From contig CAIJOA010000046.1 in the NCBI GenBank assembly GCA_903822185.1, positions 1 to 64,000 on the forward strand: a stretch of DNA of 64,000 nt, given 5' to 3'. A program made the position numbers and the translations under genes. The notes below the pieces were generated by a model that saw only the letters and a list, made by a program, of their open reading frames with translations, searched no databases and was not told the origin of the DNA. This document shows, piece after piece, positions 52,472 through 62,071 of the stretch. This DNA comes from an uncultured Rhodospirillales bacterium (lineage in GTDB: Bacteria > Pseudomonadota > Alphaproteobacteria > ATCC43930 > CGMCC-115725). Every line of letters begins with the position of its first letter. The first letter of the stretch is position 1.

Positions 52472-55400
52472 TTACTTTGCTTTGTCGGCGTCATCCGGCA
52501 GGGTTGCCGTCTGTTGCGGCTTCGCTCCGTTATCGGCAGTGTTGTTCGCGCCTTCCGTCGTGCCGCAATAGTAATAATCGTTGGCATGGCTCGAGGCGCA
52601 GGCATCGGCAACGCCGCCGACATTGGCCCCGTTGCTGCCGCCGGACCCGGCAATGCCGCCGAACCCACCGCCCGTTCCACTGCCGTTGGCACCGCCCGAT
52701 GCGATGGTGCCGCCGGTATTGTCCGTGCCGGTACCGACGCCGACCGCGATACCGCCGCCATCGCCGACGCCGATGGTCACGCCGGTTCCCGAACCGCCTG
52801 TGCCCGAACTTCCGGTGCCGCCGTTATCGCCGACCGTGGTGCCGGTGCCCGGTGAACCGCCGCCGGTTCCCGTGTTGCCACCGGTTCCGCTGCCCGTACC
52901 TGCGCCGCCATTGCCCGTGCCGTTACCGCCATCGAGGCTGCCATCGACACCGGTCGTGGCGATGGTGGTGCCGTTGCCGGTCCCGACCGTGCCGCCCGCG
53001 CCAACGGTCGTCGTGCCCGGGGTGGTGCCGCTGCCATTACCAAGGCCCAGCCCGCCCCCGCCTTCGGCCGAGACCGGCGCGATGCCGGCAACCGCTGGGG
53101 TCATCGCACCGACGCCCGCTCCGACGGAGGCGATGCTTCCACCGGTACCCGACCCGCTGCCGGTGCCGATACCCAGCCCGACGCCCGCATCAACCGAGGC
53201 CGGCGCAATGCCGGCGACGGCGGGCGTTGTTACGCCGAGGCCAGCACCGGCGGTCGTCCCATTACCCATCGAACCGGTTGCGCCATTGCCGAGACCACTG
53301 CCCAGACCGGCATCGACCGACGCTGGCGAGATGCCGGCAACGCTCGGCGTCGTTGCGTTGACGCCGGCACCGATGGAGCTTGCCGATCCGCCGGTTGTAC
53401 CTGCGCCCGTGCCGTTTCCGAGACCAATGCCCAAACCAGCGTCAATCGAGGCCGGCGCAATCCCGGCGATCCGCGGTGTCGCAACACCGACGCCTGCGCC
53501 GGCATTCGTGCCCGCTCCACCTGCCGTGCCGCCATTGCCGAGATCGACGCCCAGACCCGCATTGACGACGGCGGGGGTGATACCGGCGATCGTCGGCGTC
53601 GCGATCCCGGCGCCCGCTCCAACGGTGGTGCCAGTGCCGGTGCTGGGGTTGTTCCCGAGGCCGATGCCCAACCCCGCCGAAGCGGCGGCAGGCGAAATGC
53701 CGGCAAGGCTCGGCGTCACGACGCCCAGGCCCGCACCGACCGTGTTGAAGTCGTTATTCGCGCCGGCGCCATTGCCGTTACCCAGATCGACCCCGACGCC
53801 CGCCGTTACCGGGGTGACGCGAACGACGCTCGGTAAAACGATCCCGGCACCCGCGCCTGCGCCCGTTCCATTACCGCCGTTGCCAAGCCCGATGCCGGCC
53901 CCTGCAGCAACCGGCGTGATGCCGGCGATATCCGGCGCGGCAAGGCCGGCGCCAAGACCCGCAATGGTACGACCGCTGCCGTTATTGCCGCTTGAGCCGC
54001 CATTGCCGTTCGTTTGACCGAGGCCGATCCCGGCACCCAGCCCGACATTGGCCAGCCCCGTCGTCGCGCCCAATCCAGCGCCTGCGGTCACGGGCGATAC
54101 GCTCATGGACGAGCCGTTGCCGTTGTTATTACCAACCCCGATGCCCAAACCGGCTCTAACGGCGACCGGTGCTGCGGCGAGTCCTGCGCCAACGCCGGCG
54201 ACCGTGCCGTTGCCGGTGGAACCGGATGCGCCGTTGCCCGGCGAGCCGCTTCCGGTGCGGCCGATACCGACTCCTGCGCCCGCGCCAAGGCGGGCATCAC
54301 CGATCCCTGCGCCGGCCAACGCGCCGGCGCCGATGCCGTTACCGCGAGAGGGATTGCCGGAACCATTTCCCGTCGTGCCGCCATTGGCTTGGCCCGTTCG
54401 GCCGATGCCGAGTCCTGCGCCAGCACCGACGCCCGTATCACCGATCCCGGCACCCGCCAGGACGCCGGCGCCGACACCGCCGTTATGGGTGCCGTTACCG
54501 GATGAGCCATTACCCGCTGAACCGCTCGAGCCCTGTCCGGTCCGGCCAATGCCGATTCCGGCACCAACGCCTGCGCCGGTATCGCCGATGCCTGCTCCGG
54601 CCAGCGCGCCCGCGCCAATCCCGCTGCTTGTGCCGTTCGCCGGGGAGCCAGTGCCGGATGACCCGTTGTCCGAACCACCCGTCCGGGCAATCCCGAGACC
54701 AGCGCCTGCACCGGCACCGGTATCGCCAATGCCGGCTCCAGCAAGGTCACCCGCGCCGATCCCACGACCGGTGCTGTTGCCCGACGAACCATTACCCGCG
54801 CCGTTCGACGCCTGACCCGTCCGGCCGACGCCGACGCCCGCCCCAGCGCCGACGCCGGTGTCGCCGATCGCGACGCCGGCCAAAGCACCGGCACCGATCC
54901 CGTTGTGTTGTGTGCCGTTGCCCGGTGAGCCGTTACCGGTTCCGTTCGAGGCTCGGCCGGTTCGGCCGATGCCGAGGCCAGCCCCTGCGCCGACAGTCGT
55001 ATTACCGACAGCGACCCCGGTGCCGGCGCCCGCTCCGGCGATACGGCCCGCGCGATTGCCGCGTCCGCCGATTCCGATTCCGGCGCCCGCGCCGGCAGCG
55101 ATGTCGTTCGTCGCAACGCCCGCACCGCCGCCCGCGCCAAGCGCGTGATCGTTGTTCGTGCCGGATTGATTGTTCTGATTGTTGTTTGTCGCTTGGCGCG
55201 TTCCGTGGCGGATCGCGGCACCAGCGCCCGCGGCGATATCCGCGCTGTGGCGCTGCGCGCGATGGCTGGTGCCGACGCCGACACCGGCTCCCGCCGCGAC
55301 GGCATTGCGGCCCGCCCCGACGCCTGCGCCGGCAATCGCGCCTACGCCGCTGCCGTTATTGTTCGATCCCGCGCCGACACCCGCGATCGCGCCGCCTTCG

Positions 55401-55789
55401 ACCGGACCGAGCGCATTGAGGCTATCGGTGCTGAGGCCCGTCACCGCACCCGTTCCGACACCGTTTCCTGCCGCTGGATGGCCGCCCGCTGCCGTACCTG
55501 CGCCGGCACCTGTCGCGCCGGAGCGCGCGCCCAAGCCGCCGACCCCGACGCCCGCGCCGGCACCGGCGCCCAGTCCCGGCGATACGCCGACCCCGACACC
55601 CGTTCCCGCGCCCAGGCCAACACCGCCGCTCATTCCGGGGACACCGACCCCGACGCCCGCGCCGGCACCTAGCACGGGCGTGCCGACACCGACGCCCACG
55701 CCAACACCGCCGGCCCAAGCGGGGGCCATCGAAAAGCCGATCGCCAAGGCGACCGCTGAACATGCAATTGATGATCCGAAACCGCGCAT
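52472..55789 (-). CDS. Giant Gly/Ala-rich tandem-repeat exported protein
   Basis: A 1,105-residue protein. A Sec signal peptide (SSIACSAVALAIGFSMAPAWA) precedes a mature protein made almost wholly of Gly, Ala, Val/Ile/Leu, Asn, Ser and Thr. Residues about 27-296 are irregular GVGVG/GAGAG stretches. Residues 297-531 hold five copies of a ~47-residue unit, and residues about 609-920 eight copies of a ~40-residue unit. The final ~50 residues are unlike the rest, with two Cys (DACASSHANDYYYCG) and a polar tail. AGAGAGG precedes the ATG. Function is unknown; surface or secreted structural protein is inferred, perhaps exported by the neighbouring TPR-barrel protein. Confidence 0.8.
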   Translation of the reverse strand: MRGFGSSIACSAVALAIGFSMAPAWAGGVGVGVGVGTPVLGAGAGVGVGVPGMSGGVGLGAGTGVGVGVSPGLGAGAGAGVGVGGLGARSGATGAGAGTAAGGHPAAGNGVGTGAVTGLSTDSLNALGPVEGGAIAGVGAGSNNNGSGVGAIAGAGVGAGRNAVAAGAGVGVGTSHRAQRHSADIAAGAGAAIRHGTRQATNNNQNNQSGTNNDHALGAGGGAGVATNDIAAGAGAGIGIGGRGNRAGRIAGAGAGTGVAVGNTTVGAGAGLGIGRTGRASNGTGNGSPGNGTQHNGIGAGALAGVAIGDTGVGAGAGVGVGRTGQASNGAGNGSSGNSTGRGIGAGDLAGAGIGDTGAGAGAGLGIARTGGSDNGSSGTGSPANGTSSGIGAGALAGAGIGDTGAGVGAGIGIGRTGQGSSGSAGNGSSGNGTHNGGVGAGVLAGAGIGDTGVGAGAGLGIGRTGQANGGTTGNGSGNPSRGNGIGAGALAGAGIGDARLGAGAGVGIGRTGSGSPGNGASGSTGNGTVAGVGAGLAAAPVAVRAGLGIGVGNNNGNGSSMSVSPVTAGAGLGATTGLANVGLGAGIGLGQTNGNGGSSGNNGSGRTIAGLGAGLAAPDIAGITPVAAGAGIGLGNGGNGTGAGAGAGIVLPSVVRVTPVTAGVGVDLGNGNGAGANNDFNTVGAGLGVVTPSLAGISPAAASAGLGIGLGNNPSTGTGTTVGAGAGIATPTIAGITPAVVNAGLGVDLGNGGTAGGAGTNAGAGVGVATPRIAGIAPASIDAGLGIGLGNGTGAGTTGGSASSIGAGVNATTPSVAGISPASVDAGLGSGLGNGATGSMGNGTTAGAGLGVTTPAVAGIAPASVDAGVGLGIGTGSGSGTGGSIASVGAGVGAMTPAVAGIAPVSAEGGGGLGLGNGSGTTPGTTTVGAGGTVGTGNGTTIATTGVDGSLDGGNGTGNGGAGTGSGTGGNTGTGGGSPGTGTTVGDNGGTGSSGTGGSGTGVTIGVGDGGGIAVGVGTGTDNTGGTIASGGANGSGTGGGFGGIAGSGGSNGANVGGVADACASSHANDYYYCGTTEGANNTADNGAKPQQTATLPDDADKAK
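53030..53965 (-). repeat. Class B tandem repeats in the Gly-rich gene
   Basis: Eight imperfect units of about 36-43 codons. The recurring signature is TPxxAGIxPAxxxAGLGxGLGNG followed by a variable Gly/Thr/Ser linker, for example TPSLAGISPAAASAGLGIG and TPAVAGIAPASVDAGVGLG. Unit boundaries are approximate. Confidence 0.8.
54197..54901 (-). repeat. Class A tandem repeats in the Gly-rich gene
   Basis: Five tandem units of 46-48 codons (about 141 bases) covering residues 297-531. Each begins GIGAGxLAGAGIGDTGxG, continues AGAGxGIGRTGQ and ends in a Gly/Ser/Asn-rich linker such as NGSSGNGT. Linkers vary in length by one or two residues. Confidence 0.85.
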
Positions 55790-55946: not shown

Positions 55947-56231
55947 CTAGCGCTCGACCGTGACGCCTTTCCAAAACGCGACGTAGTTTTTGATCTGCTT
56001 TGCCGCGTCCATCGGCTCGGGATAATACCAGGCCGCATCCTTGTTCTCGTCCCCATCGACGCTGACGCTGTAGTAATGCGCCGTGCCTTTCCAATGGCAC
56101 TTCGATGTCGTTGCACTGTCTTTGAAGTATTGCTTGTCGATCGTCTCGGGCGGGAAATAGACATTGCCTTCGACGATCTCGAAGGTCGGGCTCTCCGCGA
56201 TGACTTTGCCGTGCCACAGTGCCTTGGCCAT
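55947..56231 (-). CDS. DUF427 domain protein
   Basis: A 94-residue protein covering one DUF427 domain: AKALWHGKVIAESPTFEIVE, NVYFPPETIDKQYF, CHWKGTAHYYSV and AWYYPEPMDAAKQIKNYVAF. The conserved Cys-His-Trp-Lys-Gly core and the W-Y-Y-P-x-P motif are intact. The biochemical function is unknown. The ATG at 56231 has a SD (AGGAGA). It is 16 bases downstream of the methyltransferase gene and may belong to the same transcript. Confidence 0.92.
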   Translation of the reverse strand: MAKALWHGKVIAESPTFEIVEGNVYFPPETIDKQYFKDSATTSKCHWKGTAHYYSVSVDGDENKDAAWYYPEPMDAAKQIKNYVAFWKGVTVER

Positions 56232-56247
56232 GTCGTGTCTCCTGTTG

Positions 56248-57120
56248 TTAAGTGGGGATCGCGAGAAGATCGCAATGTCCGATGGTGAGGCGCAGCGACC
56301 CATTGGCGAGTTGCGCGCGGCGTTGGCTTTCCCATCGCGCGATAACGTCGTGATGCGCGGGCGATGCTTCGCGCGCCGCGTTCGCTTCGCCGCCGATCAA
56401 AGCATCGATCAAGGCGCTATCGCGTGAACCCAACTGCCAATCGCTTTTGATCTTTTCGACGGTAAAGCCGTTGGCGGTGAAGGCGGCCTCCATGGCGCGC
56501 GGTGCATCACCGCCCAACGACGTGCCGAAACCTTTGTCGCGCGTCTGATGTTGTGCGAAAGCGGCGGCGATGATCGCGTCTTCGTCAAGCAGCGGTTCCC
56601 ACAAACGGCGGCCATCGACGTTCAGCGCGGCCAGCAGCGGCACGCGCATTGCGCCAAGCTCGGCGGCAAAGCCTTCGACCCAATCCGTCGAGACAAGATC
56701 GAAGAACGCAGCAGCGGTGAAGCCATCGACATCGTTCGGTGCGGCGTGGCCGAGACCGGACGAGAGATCGAACGGCAGACTCTCGATGCGCCATTCTTGG
56801 CCGGGCGGCGTGATGGTGATGCGGTTGCCGCCGGCGAGAATCGGCAGGCCCTGCCGCCGCGCCCAGAGCGAGAACTCATCGCCCTGCGCCGCGATCAAGG
56901 CGCGGTCCTGATCGACCAGAATCCATTCTTGATTGCCGGCGATGCGCGGCATCACCGCACGGCAATTGGCGCCGCTGCCCGCGCCGAGATCGACCAGTCG
57001 CAACGGTGCGCCGTCACGTTTCTTCAAGGCGGAGGCGAAACGCCGTGCGAGGGCTGGGCTGCGTGCGGCAAGATCCGCGCCTTCGCGCAAACGCAGCCAA
57101 TCGAGCGCGAAGCCGCTCAT
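56248..57120 (-). CDS. SAM-dependent methyltransferase
   Basis: A 290-residue class I methyltransferase. The SAM loop is LRLVDLGAGSGANCRAVMPR (about residues 43-62), followed by WILVDQDRALIAAQ (acidic ribose-binding residue) and FFDLVSTDWVEGFAAEL. The rest is unlike well-known subfamilies. The ATG at 57120 overlaps the stop of the GT4 gene by four bases, so it is the last gene of the five-gene minus-strand arm. The acceptor is presumably the product of the locus. Confidence 0.85.
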   Translation of the reverse strand: MSGFALDWLRLREGADLAARSPALARRFASALKKRDGAPLRLVDLGAGSGANCRAVMPRIAGNQEWILVDQDRALIAAQGDEFSLWARRQGLPILAGGNRITITPPGQEWRIESLPFDLSSGLGHAAPNDVDGFTAAAFFDLVSTDWVEGFAAELGAMRVPLLAALNVDGRRLWEPLLDEDAIIAAAFAQHQTRDKGFGTSLGGDAPRAMEAAFTANGFTVEKIKSDWQLGSRDSALIDALIGGEANAAREASPAHHDVIARWESQRRAQLANGSLRLTIGHCDLLAIPT

Positions 57121-58169
57121 GCGAGCAGCCGCGCGACTTCGTAATGCCAGCGCGTGGCCGCCTGCCGCCAATCCGGCAAGTCCGCACCGGCTTGCGCCGC
57201 GCCTTGCGCGAAACGCAGCAGCGCCGCGCGATTATCGAGGCAGAAGCGCAGAGCTTCGGCGAGCGCCGGCAAATCGCCCGGCGGGACCAGGATGCCCGCG
57301 CTCTCGGGCACGGTGTCGGGAATAGCGCCCGCTTGGGTCGCGATAATCGGCAGGCCATGCGCCAGCGCTTCGGCGAAGGCCATGCCATAGCCTTCGTGAA
57401 ACGACGGCAGCACAAACATATCGGCGGCGTCATAGAGCGGATCGAGCTGTGCCGGTGCCAACTCGCCATGCAGCTTGATCCGATCGCCGAGCCCGTGCCG
57501 CGCAATCGCGGCTTGCAACGCGGCTGCGTATTCGGTGTCGCGATCGAGACTGCCGATGCAATCGAGCGTCCAGTCGTTGCGGCGTAGCGTGGCCAAAGCT
57601 TCGACCAATAGCAGATGGCCTTTGCGCGGCGTAATGGTCGCGACCGACAACAGATGCACTTCGCGGCTGGCGCGTTGGCGTTGTTTAAGAATCGCGGGTT
57701 TGTCGGTGCCCGGCGGCGCGACGCCGACGGCATCTATATCGACGCCATCGCGAATGACTGCATCGCCGGTCACGCGGCTGGGACATAGGATTCCGCGGAA
57801 CAATGGCAGAAGCTGCATCTCGGCAGCATGAAACCGCGCGGCATCCACGTCGCTCAATCCGGTTTCATCGGCCAGCGGATGATGCACCCAGCCGATCAAC
57901 TGCAAGCGATGCGCTTCATGCGCGAGACAATCGGCGAAAGCGAGCAAGCCGAGGCCGTCGATCACCGCGACTTCATCGTCATGCAGCGCAGCGAGAGCCG
58001 CTGTCGCAGCGTTGCGTGCGATGACGTCGGCATCGGGAAAGTTGCCGGGCATTTCGACGATATTGATCGCATGTCCTCGCTTGCGAAGCTCATCGACGAC
58101 GCGGCGGGCAAAGAGATATCCGCCGGTCAATTGATCGATGCGCCCCGGAACGAGGAGAGCGAATTTCAA
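57117..58169 (-). CDS. GT4-family glycosyltransferase
   Basis: A 350-residue retaining glycosyltransferase of the GT-B/GT4 type. The N-terminal segment is LVPGRIDQLTGGYLFARRVV. The C-terminal donor-binding domain shows LLSVATITPRKGHLLLVEAL, FVLPSFHEGYGMAFAEALAHGLPIIAT (E-x7-E pattern) and GAIPDTVPESAGILVPPGD. It overlaps both neighbours by four bases (ATGA), so it is translationally coupled between the PTPS-like and methyltransferase genes. Likely nucleotide-sugar dependent; the acceptor is unknown. Confidence 0.9.
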   Translation of the reverse strand: MKFALLVPGRIDQLTGGYLFARRVVDELRKRGHAINIVEMPGNFPDADVIARNAATAALAALHDDEVAVIDGLGLLAFADCLAHEAHRLQLIGWVHHPLADETGLSDVDAARFHAAEMQLLPLFRGILCPSRVTGDAVIRDGVDIDAVGVAPPGTDKPAILKQRQRASREVHLLSVATITPRKGHLLLVEALATLRRNDWTLDCIGSLDRDTEYAAALQAAIARHGLGDRIKLHGELAPAQLDPLYDAADMFVLPSFHEGYGMAFAEALAHGLPIIATQAGAIPDTVPESAGILVPPGDLPALAEALRFCLDNRAALLRFAQGAAQAGADLPDWRQAATRWHYEVARLLA

Positions 58170-58570
58170 TCGAGGGGTCCTTCGAACGCCGCCCAGGCCA
58201 CCGGCGATTCGCGCAACACGACGCGCATCGAGGCAAGCGCGCCGGCGGTGCCGGGGCCGAAACCGCCTTTGCCGACATGGGCTTTCAAGCGGCGGAAGAT
58301 ATCGCCGGCCAGAAATTCAGTCGTCGTGTTGCGACCCTTGAACGACGGCAGTTCGTCGAGATTGTGATAATTGAGTTCGGCGAGGACGGCCTTGAGCGTC
58401 TCGAGCGCCTTGCCGATATCGCAGACGAGGCCGTCGCCATCCAATTCCTTACGGCGAAGTTCGATCTCGACGGCATAGGTCGCGCCATGCAGGCGCTGCG
58501 CCGGGCCGAAGATATCGCCGACGAAACTATGGGCGATCATCACATGATCGCTGACAGCCAATGTGTACAT
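58166..58570 (-). CDS. PTPS/QueD-like protein with altered active site
   Basis: A 134-residue T-fold protein of the 6-pyruvoyl-tetrahydropterin synthase / 6-carboxytetrahydropterin synthase family. The fold is marked by MIAHSFVG (first Zn His), LHGATYAVEIEL, LVCDIGKALETL, TTEFLAGDIFRRL and VVLRESP with its conserved Glu. Relative to E. coli QueD, the catalytic Cys (CGRLHGH) is Ala, the third zinc His of HGH is Ala, and the LDHH pair is LNYH. Catalysis of the standard reaction is therefore unlikely. It overlaps the GT4 gene. Confidence 0.85.
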   Translation of the reverse strand: MYTLAVSDHVMIAHSFVGDIFGPAQRLHGATYAVEIELRRKELDGDGLVCDIGKALETLKAVLAELNYHNLDELPSFKGRNTTTEFLAGDIFRRLKAHVGKGGFGPGTAGALASMRVVLRESPVAWAAFEGPLD

Positions 58571-58579
58571 GCTCAGCCT

Positions 58580-59548
58580 CTAGAAATAACGAACGATCTC
58601 GCATAACGCGCCGGCGGGGTCGCGCGCCAACTGCGCCATCTTCTCCGGCAATTGGTCGAGCGCTGTCTCGCCGGTGATCAACCGGTCATAGACCGGATCG
58701 GCCAGAAGCTCCAATGCCAGGTTTAAGCGTTGCCGATAGGTGCGGCGCGCGCGGCGGGCGGTGGCGACCGCGCCGACCTGCGACGATTTAAGAACTAGGC
58801 GGCGGCTATGGAAAGCTTCGCCCAGTGGCACGGCGACTTGTTTGTCGCCATACCAGCTCATCTCCAGCACCGTCGCCTCGAACCCGGCAAGGCTCAATGC
58901 GGTGGAGAGACCCGCCGCGTTGCCGCTGGTGTGAATGACCAGATCGCACTCGCCTTCGGCCTTTGCAGGCAACGCGAAGTTGCAACCGAGTGCGACGGTA
59001 ATCTCCGCGCGCTTTTCATCCACATCGATCAAGGTGACATGCGCGCCGGGCAGCTTCGCGGCCAGCGATGCGACCAAGCATCCAACCACGCCCGCGCCGA
59101 TCACCGCGATCCTGTCGCCGATGCGCGGACCGGCATCCCACAGACCGTTGAGCGCCGTCTCCATATTGGCCGCGAGTGTTGCGCGTCGATCCGGTACCGC
59201 ATCGGGAATTTCGATGACCGCATCTTCCGGCACGACGTAACGATCTTGATGTGGATACAGCGCGAAGACGCGTTTGCCGGTTAGCGTTCCCTGCTCCACC
59301 GTGCCGACCGAGGCGTAGCCGTATTTCACCGGCGCGGGAAAATCGCCGTCCTGAAAGGGACAACGCATCAACTGATATTGGCTGGGCGGTACTTGGCCTT
59401 GAAAGACGAGGCTTTCGGTGCCGCGGCTGATCGCGCTGAAGCTTGTGCGCACCAGCACATCGCTCGGGCCAAGCGTTGCAAGCGGTGTGGCGCGGATTTC
59501 GCCGCGCCCTGGCGCTGCCAGCCAGAAGGCGCGCGCGGTGTCGCTCAT
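58580..59548 (-). CDS. Zinc-type (MDR) alcohol dehydrogenase-like protein
   Basis: A 322-residue medium-chain dehydrogenase/reductase. SFSAISRGTESLVFQGQ is the N-terminal substrate domain; GDRIAVIGAGVVGCLVASLAAK is the NAD(P) Rossmann motif; VTLIDVDEKR follows. The four-cysteine structural zinc loop is missing, as in related bacteriochlorophyllide- or sorbitol-type members. ATG at 59548 lies one base from the RibD-like stop (59550). It probably oxidises or reduces an intermediate carrying a ribityl or sugar side chain; this is inference from neighbours. Confidence 0.85.
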   Translation of the reverse strand: MSDTARAFWLAAPGRGEIRATPLATLGPSDVLVRTSFSAISRGTESLVFQGQVPPSQYQLMRCPFQDGDFPAPVKYGYASVGTVEQGTLTGKRVFALYPHQDRYVVPEDAVIEIPDAVPDRRATLAANMETALNGLWDAGPRIGDRIAVIGAGVVGCLVASLAAKLPGAHVTLIDVDEKRAEITVALGCNFALPAKAEGECDLVIHTSGNAAGLSTALSLAGFEATVLEMSWYGDKQVAVPLGEAFHSRRLVLKSSQVGAVATARRARRTYRQRLNLALELLADPVYDRLITGETALDQLPEKMAQLARDPAGALCEIVRYF

Positions 59549-59549
59549 G

Positions 59550-60326
59550 TCAGGTGCCGAAGATACATTCGAACAATGTATCATCCCCAAGCGTTATCCG
59601 GCGAACCGTGGGACGCAGGCCCGATGCAGGGTCCATGATCTCGGGCAAGGTGAGGCTCGGACGGCCCGATCCCATGATCACCGGCGCGACCGTCAGTTGC
59701 AGACGATCGAGACAGCCGGCGCGCAGGAAATGCGAAACGGTGACGCCGCCGCCTTCGATGAACAGCCAATGAAGTCCGCGTGCCTTGAGGGCCGCGACGA
59801 TGGCGGCAGGCGCGATCTTGCCGTCGCCGTCGCGTGGCAAGGCGATGATCTCGGCGCCGTCGATCGGCGTATTGTTGCTGTTGTCTTCGGTGGTGATGAG
59901 CAATGTCGGCGTGCTGCGGTCGGTGAAGACCTGATGATCGCCTTTCAATTTGCGGCGCGGATCGATGATCACGCGCGCCGGGTGATTGCCGCTGCAGCGG
60001 CGCACGGTCAGCAGCGGATCGTCGTGAAGTATCGTGTCCGTGCCGACGATCACCGCATCGGCCAGCGCGCGCATGCGGTGGGTGTGTTGCAGATCTTCGT
60101 CACCGGAAATCCAGCGCGACGCGCCGTTGGCGGCAGCGATCCGGCCGTCGAGGCTTTGCGCCAGATGCGCGATCACAAAGGTTTGTTCGACGGAGCGGGT
60201 GCAAAGCGGTCCATAGAGCGCTTCGATCGCATCGGCTGCCGTATAGGTGGATGCGTTGCGCCGGCGGCCCAACAGGCCCTGCCACTGCGCTTCCGCATAT
60301 CCTTTTATGTCGCCTTCCGCAGCCAT
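59550..60326 (-). CDS. RibD C-terminal (reductase) domain protein, no deaminase
   Basis: A 258-residue protein whose core is the RibD_C / dihydrofolate-reductase-like domain: HLAQSLDGRIAAANGASRWI, HRMRALADAVIVGTDTILHDDP, HPARVIIDPRRKL and LFIEGGGVTVSHFL. Canonical RibD also has an N-terminal cytidine-deaminase-like zinc domain; here it is absent and replaced by about 50 residues of unknown role. The enzyme should reduce a ribosyl-amino side chain to ribityl in an NADPH-dependent reaction. It is the first gene of the minus-strand arm, 37 bases from the divergent CDP-alcohol phosphatidyltransferase. Confidence 0.88.
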   Translation of the reverse strand: MAAEGDIKGYAEAQWQGLLGRRRNASTYTAADAIEALYGPLCTRSVEQTFVIAHLAQSLDGRIAAANGASRWISGDEDLQHTHRMRALADAVIVGTDTILHDDPLLTVRRCSGNHPARVIIDPRRKLKGDHQVFTDRSTPTLLITTEDNSNNTPIDGAEIIALPRDGDGKIAPAAIVAALKARGLHWLFIEGGGVTVSHFLRAGCLDRLQLTVAPVIMGSGRPSLTLPEIMDPASGLRPTVRRITLGDDTLFECIFGT

Positions 60327-60362
60327 CGTTGACTCAACCCCAGTAAAGCATAATAAGCTTGG

Positions 60363-60965
60363 GTGCGATCCTTGAACACCAACAAGTTTTCGCGAGCACT
60401 GCCCCGGCCCTTCGGTGCGGCCAATTGGGTAACACTCGTTCGAGCCTGTATTGCCCTCGGCCTTCTTGGTTATGCCGTTGCGGCTCTACTGACCCCCACA
60501 AGTACGGCGGGACGATGGCTTTGGACCACCGCTGCACTCTGCGCGGTGATACTGGATGGGATCGACGGCTATCTCGCGCGGCGTTTCGGCCAGACAAGCG
60601 CGTTCGGCGCGCGCTTCGATATGGAAACCGATGCGGCGACCGTGCTGATGCTGTGCCTCTTGGCGTTTCTTACCGGGCAAGCCGGAGCTTGGGTGCTGTT
60701 GAGCGGCCTGATGCGCTACCTATTTATAATCGGTGGCCGGATTTGGCCCGGCCTGACGATGCCGCTGGCGAAGAGCAAAAGGCGTCAAGTGATCTGCGTC
60801 ATCCAGATTGCCGTACTCATTTTGGCGCTGGCGCCGGTCACGCCGCCCGGCATGGCGGCGATGATTTGCCTCGCGGGGCTTTTGCTGCTGGGCTATTCCT
60901 TCGCGGTCGATACCATATGGCTCGTGACCAACCGGGCCGGTTTAGAGAGTGAGGCTGTACGGTGA
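60363..60965 (+). CDS. CDP-alcohol phosphatidyltransferase family protein
   Basis: A 200-residue integral membrane enzyme. The CDP-alcohol motif D-x2-DG-x2-AR-x8-G-x3-D-x3-D is complete (Asp65, Asp68-Gly69, Ala72-Arg73, Gly82, Asp86, Asp90). Six helices are likely. It would attach a CDP-activated alcohol to a hydroxyl acceptor. A GTG at 60363 is used; TTG at 60372 is an alternative. Its stop overlaps the ribA start by four bases, linking it to a flavin/pteridine enzyme, an unusual pairing. Confidence 0.92.
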   Translation: MRSLNTNKFSRALPRPFGAANWVTLVRACIALGLLGYAVAALLTPTSTAGRWLWTTAALCAVILDGIDGYLARRFGQTSAFGARFDMETDAATVLMLCLLAFLTGQAGAWVLLSGLMRYLFIIGGRIWPGLTMPLAKSKRRQVICVIQIAVLILALAPVTPPGMAAMICLAGLLLLGYSFAVDTIWLVTNRAGLESEAVR

Positions 60966-62071
60966 GCGAGAAGAACGTCGAAACCGGTGATGCGCGCTTG
61001 TTGCGCCGCGTCGATCGCGTGATCGGCGATTTGCGTCGCGGCGAATTCGCGGTCGTCAACGGTGCGGGGCAAAGCGTTCTGCTCCAGGCGGCCGAGAATG
61101 TCAGCACGCAAAGTTTGGCGCAGTTGGCGGCACAAGGTCCCATCGCGCTGGCTCTGACCCGGCGCCGCGCAGCGGCGGTTGGCCTTGCCGCACCGGCCGA
61201 TGCGCCCGGCGGCAGCGTCGTCCTTACCCTCCCGCCCAATACCGAACCCGCTTATCTCCATACCCTCGCCGATCCCGGCGCGGCCGTCGTTGGCATGGGG
61301 CTGACGGCCCCGGGCGGCGATCATCTGGTTGATGCCGCGGTCGAATTGACCAAGCTGGCGCGGCTGCTGCCGGCGGCGGTGATCGTGACGCTAACGCCCG
61401 ACGCGGCGGCGCGTTTTGCCGCTGCCGAAGGGCTTTTGACGATCGATGCCGGCGACATCTTCGCCTATCAGGCCGAGGCGGCACGCAATCTCCGCATCGT
61501 CTCCGAGGCGCGCGTGCCGCTGGAAGATGCCGAGGAAACCCGTCTGGTGCATTTCCGTCCCGGCGACGGCGGCGTCGGCCATGTTGCGATCGTCATCGGC
61601 GAACCCGATCCGTCCCAGCCGGTGCTGATCCGACTACATTCGGAATGTTTCACCGGCGATCTGCTCGGCAGCCTGCGCTGCGATTGCGGCGATCAGCTGC
61701 GTGGCGCCATCGCCGAGATCGCGCGCAGCGGCGGCGGCGTGGTCCTCTATTTGTCGCAGGAAGGGCGCGGCATCGGCCTCGCCAACAAGCTGCGCGCTTA
61801 CGAGCTGCAGGATGCCGGCTTCGACACGGTCGATGCGAACGAGCTGCTGGGCTTCGACGCGGACGAACGGGTCTATCTCCCGGCGGCGGCCATGCTGCGC
61901 CAGTTGGGTTTCAACCGTGTCCGGCTGCTGACCAACAATCCGGAAAAGATCGACCAGTTGGGTCGCTCCGGCATCGAGGTGGTCGAACGCGTCGCCCATG
62001 CCTTCCCGGCCAATGCCCATAACGAGCGTTACCTGCGGACCAAGGCGACACGCAGCGGGCATATGCTCTAG
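60962..62071 (+). CDS. ribA: GTP cyclohydrolase II (RibA type, degenerate N-terminal domain)
   Basis: A 369-residue protein. The C-terminal half is a canonical GTP cyclohydrolase II: zinc site CFTGDLLGSLRCDCGDQL (about residues 228-245), catalytic QEGRGIGLANKLRAYELQ, and NNPEKIDQL. It opens the GTP imidazole ring to a 2,5-diaminopyrimidinone. The N-terminal ~180 residues align loosely with DHBP synthase but lack its motifs. Overlap with the phosphatidyltransferase indicates co-expression. It could serve riboflavin synthesis or a dedicated pathway with the divergent arm. Confidence 0.92.
   Translation: MSEKNVETGDARLLRRVDRVIGDLRRGEFAVVNGAGQSVLLQAAENVSTQSLAQLAAQGPIALALTRRRAAAVGLAAPADAPGGSVVLTLPPNTEPAYLHTLADPGAAVVGMGLTAPGGDHLVDAAVELTKLARLLPAAVIVTLTPDAAARFAAAEGLLTIDAGDIFAYQAEAARNLRIVSEARVPLEDAEETRLVHFRPGDGGVGHVAIVIGEPDPSQPVLIRLHSECFTGDLLGSLRCDCGDQLRGAIAEIARSGGGVVLYLSQEGRGIGLANKLRAYELQDAGFDTVDANELLGFDADERVYLPAAAMLRQLGFNRVRLLTNNPEKIDQLGRSGIEVVERVAHAFPANAHNERYLRTKATRSGHML

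Follow-up and report, generated by a model that had tools for sequence, protein, structure and literature searches.

A conserved gene set that probably builds a GTP-derived, glycosylated, and methylated phospholipid head group in bacteria

In this work, we examined a seven-gene locus at positions 56248-62071 of a 64,000-nucleotide stretch of DNA (hereafter, the window) from an uncultured Rhodospirillales bacterium (contig CAIJOA010000046.1 of GenBank assembly GCA_903822185.1). We found that these genes belong to a widespread conserved pathway that is present in several bacterial phyla and, in part, in haloarchaea. The product is probably a GTP-derived, glycosylated, and methylated head group on a phospholipid, which would be used or transferred outside the membrane. 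Three observations from sequences and co-occurrence carry this reading: the conserved gene set itself, the convergence of different enzyme combinations on the supply of 2,5-diamino-6-ribosylaminopyrimidinone 5'-phosphate (DARoPP), and the link between a CDP-alcohol phosphatidyltransferase (CDPAP) and a head-group transferase.

All seven genes are open and form two divergent arms, and their families, order, and orientation are those given in an earlier reading made from the letters of the window (hereafter, the sequence-only reading). The minus-strand arm has five genes: a stand-alone RibD_C reductase with no deaminase domain (59550-60326; PF01872, 6e-44), a BchC-like medium-chain dehydrogenase/reductase (MDR; 58580-59590, with a likely ATG start at 59548; weak dehydrogenase matches), a protein of the 6-pyruvoyltetrahydropterin synthase (PTPS) fold and SCO6650 type (58166-58570; PF01242, 3e-22), a glycosyltransferase of family GT4 (57117-58169; PF13692, 1e-29; PF00534, 9e-29), and a methyltransferase (56248-57171, with a likely ATG start at 57120). 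The plus-strand arm has two, namely, a PgsA-like CDPAP (60363-60965; PF01066, 5e-16) and a GTP cyclohydrolase II (GCHII) of the Tyr280 type (60962-62071; PF00925, 1e-57; no RibB Pfam match). With the two ATG codons above taken as the likely starts, the genes show gaps of 1 and 9 bases and three 4-base overlaps, in agreement with the tight packing described before; the gap between the arms measures 36 bases, one fewer than the 37 claimed. The Pfam scan covered nine window proteins (the seven of the locus and two neighbours), and NCBIfam models were also run. The methyltransferase had no Pfam or NCBIfam match. Its AlphaFold model (pLDDT 92.7) gave Foldseek matches to methyltransferases that use S-adenosylmethionine (best E 5e-11, TM-scores of 0.5-0.6), and this confident model points to a class I S-adenosylmethionine-dependent methyltransferase. 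A hydropathy scan found no transmembrane segment in the GT4 protein.

To assess conservation, we used the MDR protein as the bait for a neighbourhood search over one genome per species and compared the loci by all-against-all BLAST on filtered open reading frames. The 92 loci collected are a non-random sample, and 80 of them are the best 80 of at least 576 MDR relatives. Among these 80 are Alpha-, Beta-, and Gammaproteobacteria, Acidobacteria, and Actinomycetota with two Thermoleophilia. Gene counts were taken from the 81 stretches of at least 16 kb and are not independent because Streptomyces is over-represented. Of these long loci, 76 were scored for the PTPS-like gene, 72 for the GT4 gene, 71 for the methyltransferase gene, and 61 for the CDPAP gene, the last count omitting fusions with the transferase. 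Lower counts were obtained for a flippase-like LPG_synthase_TM protein (48), GCHII (46), RibD_C (42), a creatininase-family protein (35), and an LtaS-like protein (18). On named plasmids of Thiodictyon, Streptomyces, Palleronia, Peteryoungia, Microbacterium, Methylosinus, and Agrobacterium, the PTPS-like gene and a methyltransferase gene come after the MDR gene, mostly together with the GT4 gene, and RibD_C, CDPAP, and GCHII genes lie variably around them. A plasmid of the haloarchaeon Halomicrococcus carries the MDR, PTPS-like, GT4, and methyltransferase genes, with no cyclohydrolase gene in the stretch. The sequence-only reading had proposed that the same families be sought together in other genomes, and similar sets do recur across phyla.

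Within the class of the window genome, the MDR protein was found at E <= 1e-40 in 23 of 190 genomes and a strong RibD_C match (E <= 1.7e-39, clearly stronger than that of housekeeping RibD) in 20, with both present in 19. The MDR gene occurs without a strong RibD_C match in G064, G096, G175, and G161 (where RibD_C matches at E 1e-32 beside the MDR gene), and RibD_C occurs without the MDR gene in G127. The two genes are 63 kb apart in G028 and on different contigs in G035; their co-retention is therefore independent of linkage.

The GCHII of the locus has an intact zinc-cysteine motif HSECFTGDLLGSLRCDC and Tyr280, matches Escherichia coli RibA (2bz0) at 7e-56, and is predicted to be a functional GTP cyclohydrolase II. 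In 48 loci with a GCHII above 100 bits, we determined which residue aligns with Tyr280; these counts leave out the window GCHII and housekeeping RibBA. Met or His was found in 32 loci (27 and 5, respectively) and Tyr in 16. A strong creatininase-family neighbour (at least 250 bits) accompanies the Met/His type in 32 of 32 loci and the Tyr type in 0 of 16; 13 of the latter have no such neighbour, and three (Halomonas L059, Thauera L061, and Chromohalobacter L074) have a weak one (75-81 bits). Both types occur inside the Actinomycetota, and many of the loci are from related Streptomyces. In the Streptomyces coelicolor protein SCO6655, a Met at this position reportedly makes the enzyme stop at formylaminopyrimidine. 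In two haloarchaeal plasmids (L036:7226-8008 and L043:7213-8001), a GTP cyclohydrolase III gene overlaps the MDR gene. By name, the haloarchaea in which the MDR gene adjoins a GTP cyclohydrolase III gene are Haloarcula GH36 (PF05165 checked), with PTPS-like, methyltransferase, and CDPAP genes, and Natrarchaeobaculum, where no PTPS-like gene is annotated. This haloarchaeal enzyme is a non-orthologous replacement of GCHII. In one locus, from a Pseudonocardia metagenome-assembled genome (L076), GCHII and RibD_C are joined in one open frame, which fits a next step in which DARoPP is reduced. According to a published study, BrbF, a creatininase-family formamidase of Sinorhizobium meliloti, has been proven to convert formylaminopyrimidine into DARoPP, and archaeal GTP cyclohydrolase III yields the same formyl compound (PMC9478397). 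The three suppliers, i.e., the Tyr-type GCHII, the Met/His-type GCHII with a creatininase-family partner, and GTP cyclohydrolase III, thus suggest that DARoPP is the intermediate they have in common. BrbF is comparable in that it is a creatininase-family enzyme making DARoPP, and such genes adjoin the Met/His-type GCHII of this locus type. It differs in that it serves riboflavin synthesis, and the scan of nine window proteins showed no creatininase.

The closest PDB relative of the window RibD_C protein is 6p8c, a 2,5-diamino-6-ribosylamino-4(3H)-pyrimidinone 5'-phosphate reductase (1.3e-25). The motif DDP.L..R, which we take to be part of the RibD_C substrate site, is present as GTDTILHDDPLLTVR. 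Within the family, 47 of 65 members have the strict motif, 16 of the other 18 have a D-[DN]-P variant, and none of the 65 has the deaminase motif. These features suggest a DARoPP reductase of the RibD_C/archaeal type without a deaminase.

The PTPS-like protein belongs by sequence and neighbourhood to the family of SCO6650 of S. coelicolor (structure 3d7j; E 1.5e-40, profile E 1e-59). HGA replaces the zinc-ligand HGH of PTPS and QueD in 103 of 106 family members, and two haloarchaeal members in the alignment keep HSH. Alignment to the QueD chain 4ntk, which we take to be a C27A mutant, places an Ala at the position of the catalytic Cys and indicates loss of the Asp-His pair. A normal PTPS/QueD step in queuosine or biopterin synthesis was ruled out since the catalytic residues are gone, and for the same reason, the protein is no evidence of an ordinary pterin step. 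Glu121 is invariant in 11 aligned sequences, at what is presumably the position of the residue that anchors the pterin ring in PTPS and QueD. The protein should bind a 2-amino-4-oxo ring and is unlikely to carry out the PTPS reaction. One subfamily listed in a review of PTPS proteins, PTPS-V, is described there as having an unclear function (PMC5041015).

Relatives of the MDR protein are annotated as 'zinc-binding alcohol dehydrogenase', and Pfam gave Rossmann-type matches only, with ADH_zinc_N below its cut-off. The closest NCBIfam model is that of BchC, an alcohol-oxidising enzyme (51 bits against a cut-off of 291). Ser39 and Tyr76 are invariant in 12 of 12 sequences where zinc enzymes carry Cys and His (register set by eye), and the motif SxxSxGTE is found in 99 of 113 members. 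An Asp ends the second Rossmann-fold strand, as in NAD-type enzymes (also judged by eye). The protein thus appears to lack the Cys/His/Glu zinc ligands of zinc MDR alcohol dehydrogenases.

At the lipid end, CDPAP is tied to a head-group transferase of the LtaS/EptA fold by fusion and by co-occurrence, a link that is new here. The closest NCBIfam model of CDPAP is PgsA (43 bits against a cut-off of 109), the window protein has four hydrophobic segments by hydropathy, and the motif D..DG..AR.{8,9}G...D...D is present in 76 of 77 family members. CDPAP and an LtaS-like 'sulfatase' share one open frame in four of the 92 loci (Pseudonocardia L095, Burkholderiales L101, Geodermatophilus L105, and Thermoleophilia L119). 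In the window genome, the homologue of the transferase is encoded on another contig, C1 (L127:6739-8454; 34% identity, E 4e-59; Pfam Sulfatase, 32 bits). Its model is of moderate quality (pLDDT 69, mostly above 80 in the catalytic domain and low in the membrane part), and the best Foldseek matches are LtaP/LtaS, GacH, and EptA, with E values from 3e-11 (LtaP) to 9e-8 (EptA, 6e-8). These enzymes transfer phospho-head-groups from phospholipids. Separate LtaS-like transferases have five hydrophobic segments in L037, L042, L089, L107, and others, and fewer or more in some; for the C1 protein, whose own gene was outside the hydropathy set, the model has helices in this part. Among 26 transferases, ES.G is present in 25, SPT or SST in 21, and GDHQP in 25; by analogy, the Thr may be the nucleophile. 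Close to the C1 gene are queA, tgt, and a queG-like gene, perhaps by chance.

The LtaS-like protein was found in 15 of the 190 class genomes, comprising 13 of the 23 MDR-positive and 2 of the 167 MDR-negative genomes (Fisher test, 2e-12). One of the latter, G127 (74% complete), carries a RibD_C orthologue and CDPAP. We searched for CDPAP at E <= 1e-8 in 25 class genomes (24 that are MDR- or RibD-positive, and G056) and found it in 13. The transferase is present in 13 of the 13 genomes with CDPAP compared with 1 of 11 CDPAP-less genomes that have the core genes (6e-6); the exception, G064, is 68% complete. In a second set of 50 genomes, chosen from the best 80 with fewer Streptomyces and scored for CDPAP in the fetched stretch only, the transferase, searched with a query from a CDPAP-carrying locus, was found in 38 of 40 genomes with CDPAP compared with 2 of 10 without (3e-6). 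The exceptions are L051, L104, L124, and L075, the stretch of which starts 4.5 kb before its MDR gene. In many cases, including the window genome, the two genes are not linked, and the association therefore goes beyond neighbourhood.

Based on these families, we propose the following pathway. GCHII would open GTP to give DARoPP, and the deaminase-less RibD_C enzyme would reduce the ribosyl chain to ribityl with the 2-amino group retained. The SCO6650-type T-fold protein would bind the 2-amino-4-oxo ring and, together with the zinc-less NAD-type MDR enzyme, remodel it. As a guess, which is chemistry on paper, the MDR enzyme might oxidise the ribityl C2'-OH and the 5-amino group might close the ring, giving a pterin of the 7,8-dihydroneopterin phosphate type with GTP cyclohydrolase I bypassed. 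The GT4 enzyme would add a sugar and the methyltransferase a methyl group, although the order of decoration is likewise guesswork. The PgsA-like CDPAP would join the product to CDP-diacylglycerol. Finally, in most genomes having CDPAP, the LtaS/EptA-fold enzyme of the alkaline-phosphatase superfamily, with five transmembrane segments (encoded here on contig C1), would move the phospho-head-group from the lipid to an acceptor outside, the nature of which we can only guess. The sequence-only reading had proposed a GTP-derived, decorated, and possibly lipid-linked product; our data support a dedicated GTP pathway, a diaminopyrimidine/ribityl start, and attachment to a lipid, the case for which is strengthened by the head-group transferase. 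A bolder version, in which bacteria and haloarchaea share a new membrane lipid or surface modification with a cyclohydrolase I-free pterin that is glycosylated, methylated, linked by the PgsA-like enzyme, and transferred outside by the LtaS-like one, is tentative, and we think it unlikely in full. At the extreme, the LtaS-like step could polymerise the head group into a teichoic-acid-like chain carrying nucleobase-like rings.

Several points weigh against a lipid-linked, GTP-derived head group. GCHII is present in only 46 of the 81 long loci, and that of the window is the only intact one found in its genome and probably also feeds riboflavin synthesis. Among 18 actinobacterial genomes searched, 15 hold the locus with no RibD_C orthologue (matches of at most 37% identity or none). 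These 15 (11 Streptomyces and 4 other actinobacteria) had been picked for their RibD_C-less loci, and the other three were positive controls, in which it was found. A substitute was looked for in such RibD_C-less actinobacterial loci and none was found; an F420-type PPOX gene, which lies beside GCHII in L034, was considered and rejected because just 6 of the 92 loci were found to have it. In these genomes, the ribityl step may be absent, performed by housekeeping RibD, or performed by another enzyme. At the lipid end, a CDPAP match is lacking in 11 of the 24 MDR- or RibD-positive class genomes, and the co-occurrence tests ignore shared ancestry. The C1 transferase model, with its moderate pLDDT of 69, has matches at TM-scores (by target) of 0.4-0.5, and sulfatases also match it (E 4e-7 and weaker). 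A flippase-like gene was sought in the window genome and none was found, in a search that was uninformative.

An OpgH-like glucosyltransferase gene lies by the core genes instead in 5 of the 11 CDPAP-less class genomes (G060, G182, G035, G164, and G189), and neither gene was found in the other 6. The OpgH-like gene was seen in the class loci L158, L161, L169, L179, and L181 and in 4 of the 10 CDPAP-less loci of the second set (L045, L054, L056, and L085). It accompanies the core genes mainly where the LtaS-like gene is also absent, and it occurs together with CDPAP in G028 and L077 as exceptions. We rejected it as a part of the core since it sits by the locus mainly when CDPAP is missing. The OpgH-like glucosyltransferase is possibly an alternative destination, so that different carriers may receive the product of the core genes.

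The rival that survives best is a soluble or secreted pteridine or pyrimidine glycoside (pigment, cofactor, or signal), with CDPAP and the LtaS-like protein doing an independent lipid job as co-travellers. Cyanopterin is an example of a methylated pterin glycoside, and the core genes lack a CDPAP match in the 11 class genomes mentioned above and lack CDPAP in the stretch in 10 of 50 loci. Pterin glycosides of cyanobacteria and externalised pterins are also mentioned in a recent review (PMC13259868). However, CDPAP lies inside 61 of the 81 long loci, and the LtaS-like protein is rarely found outside genomes that have the core genes (13 of 23 vs. 2 of 167); we regard this rival as rather unlikely. 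A lipid- or glycan-linked pteridine could alternatively act as an extracytoplasmic electron carrier served by a cytochrome b561. A gene of this family lies near the core genes in 7 of 66 loci (L033, L037 with PF01292, L042, L045, L056, L067, and L085; 26 Streptomyces-type loci were dropped), but it is unclustered in the other 59, and none is encoded among the nine window proteins scanned, beyond which no search was made. Such a redox lipid seems improbable to us. It is slightly less probable still that the GT4, methyltransferase, and CDPAP enzymes make an ordinary glycophospholipid and that the GTP branch provides a regulator or cofactor only. The closest NCBIfam model of CDPAP being PgsA is in favour of this, and the GT4 family includes enzymes that act on phosphatidylinositol, such as PimA. 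However, the PTPS-like, GT4, and methyltransferase genes are the ones most tightly coupled to the MDR gene (76, 72, and 71 of 81), and the latter two persist where CDPAP is absent.

It is highly implausible that housekeeping riboflavin genes and unrelated glycan genes came together here by chance: the locus GCHII, as the sole one with an intact motif found in the assembly, probably supports riboflavin synthesis, but a complete rib operon lies elsewhere and the set is conserved in several phyla, with fusions and replacements. The sequence-only reading had suggested looking for separate riboflavin genes, and contig C28 indeed carries a complete set, arranged as nrdR-ribD-ribE, with a RibD that has both deaminase and reductase domains, and ribBA-ribH-nusB. 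The RibD_C protein of the locus is thus not the sole riboflavin reductase, as it would be in a housekeeping cluster, and among the nine window proteins, the Pfam scan found no RibD deaminase, RibB, RibH (lumazine synthase), or RibE (riboflavin synthase). Furthermore, the minus-arm genes occur together with GCHII in 46 of the 81 long loci and in G060, a genome of the same family. A housekeeping riboflavin cluster was ruled out by the C28 operon together with these conservation data, and since the set recurs across phyla and a separate operon exists, the locus is not a chance grouping. What remains of that idea is, in effect, co-use of GCHII.

The assembly (95% complete) has two PF00925 matches only, the locus GCHII and the RibBA on C28 (L125:5291-6442). 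In the latter, a RibB domain is joined to a cyclohydrolase part with MHGINMLDDAFGNVDD in place of HSECFTGDLLGSLRCDC, such that the zinc-cysteine motif is lost. In effect, then, the locus gene encodes the only intact GCHII found, a possibility that the sequence-only reading had considered, and it is probably co-used for riboflavin, given the loss of this motif in the only other match. The first ~170 residues of the locus GCHII have no Pfam match and may be a RibB remnant; alignment to a RibBA begins at residue 115. Together, the C28 RibBA and the locus GCHII resemble two halves, encoded in the same genome, that complement each other. The name 'RibBX' is used for a RibB whose RibA half is dead. 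In the class sample, by bit score and among the matches listed, a strong GCHII is seemingly inside the locus in G060 and G131 and elsewhere in G182, G035, G107, G135, G148, G053, and G164. Compared with riboflavin biosynthesis, the locus shares the first two activities (RibA and RibD) and the DARoPP intermediate; it differs in that the deaminase, lumazine synthase, and riboflavin synthase are encoded on C28.

Additional features were observed around these loci. Directly downstream of the methyltransferase gene is a gene for a DUF427 (PF04248) protein (55947-56303, minus strand), which is absent from the conserved set as seen. Also near the locus is a 1105-aa low-complexity frame (52472-55789, minus strand) that is rich in Gly, Ala, and Val with many GAGxGIGIGRTG-like stretches; its annotation is uncertain because the same region contains further long open frames. 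Genome G161 (1.6 Mb; locus L160) has a compact diverged cluster with MDR, PTPS-like, GT4, and methyltransferase genes, RibD_C, GCHII, and a weak creatininase match. In Thiodictyon, two genes for solute carrier family 23 permeases (L033:1535-5544), which we take to be of nucleobase type, lie near the cluster.

Parts of this system have relatives in the literature. The PDB entry 3d7j for SCO6650 was confirmed; this protein is of the same PTPS-like family, and the same kind of neighbourhood occurs in other Streptomyces. We take SCO6655 to be its cyclohydrolase neighbour in S. coelicolor. This enzyme has reportedly been shown to act as a GTP cyclohydrolase II whose reaction ends at formylaminopyrimidine, SCO6650 is said to lack PTPS activity, and one group reportedly studied both and left the product open. 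To our knowledge, that work did not extend the cluster to Proteobacteria or archaea or link it with a phosphatidyltransferase or an LtaS-like transferase. SCO6655 is also named in a metabolic-model paper. The Streptomyces cluster has thus reportedly been studied in part before. No description of the combined locus, of the S. coelicolor genes, or of the LtaS combination was recognised in the openly available full-text literature, with subscription literature mostly outside this search, and no lipid-linked pterin was found in the same literature. The statement of the sequence-only reading that no such pathway has been described therefore holds in that no description was recognised, and it needs qualification in that the Streptomyces member SCO6650 has a solved structure. 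The pairing of a CDPAP with a five-transmembrane-segment transferase of the alkaline-phosphatase superfamily resembles PgsA and LtaS, which lead from phosphatidylglycerol to lipoteichoic acid, as well as EptA and GacH. LtaP/LtaS is the closest structural match of the modelled transferase, and the pair described here differs in being tied to a GTP-derived pathway. Cyanobacterial pterin glycosides (cyanopterin and biopterin glucoside) are similar in having a GTP-derived, glycosylated, and methylated ring; they differ in that their synthesis begins with GTP cyclohydrolase I.

If our reading is true, the RefSeq labels for this set ('6-carboxytetrahydropterin synthase' with a queuosine Gene Ontology term, 'zinc-binding alcohol dehydrogenase', and 'RibD family protein') mislead, and a class of lipids has been overlooked. 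The pathway makes the roles of SCO6650 and of the specialised Streptomyces cyclohydrolase testable, as well as the formation of pterin rings without GTP cyclohydrolase I and the exit of pterins from cells. Regarding the latter, a pterin efflux system has yet to be identified according to a 2026 review (PMC13259868). The LtaS/EptA-like partner leads to a concrete prediction, namely, that the phospho-head-group would be found on the outer surface.

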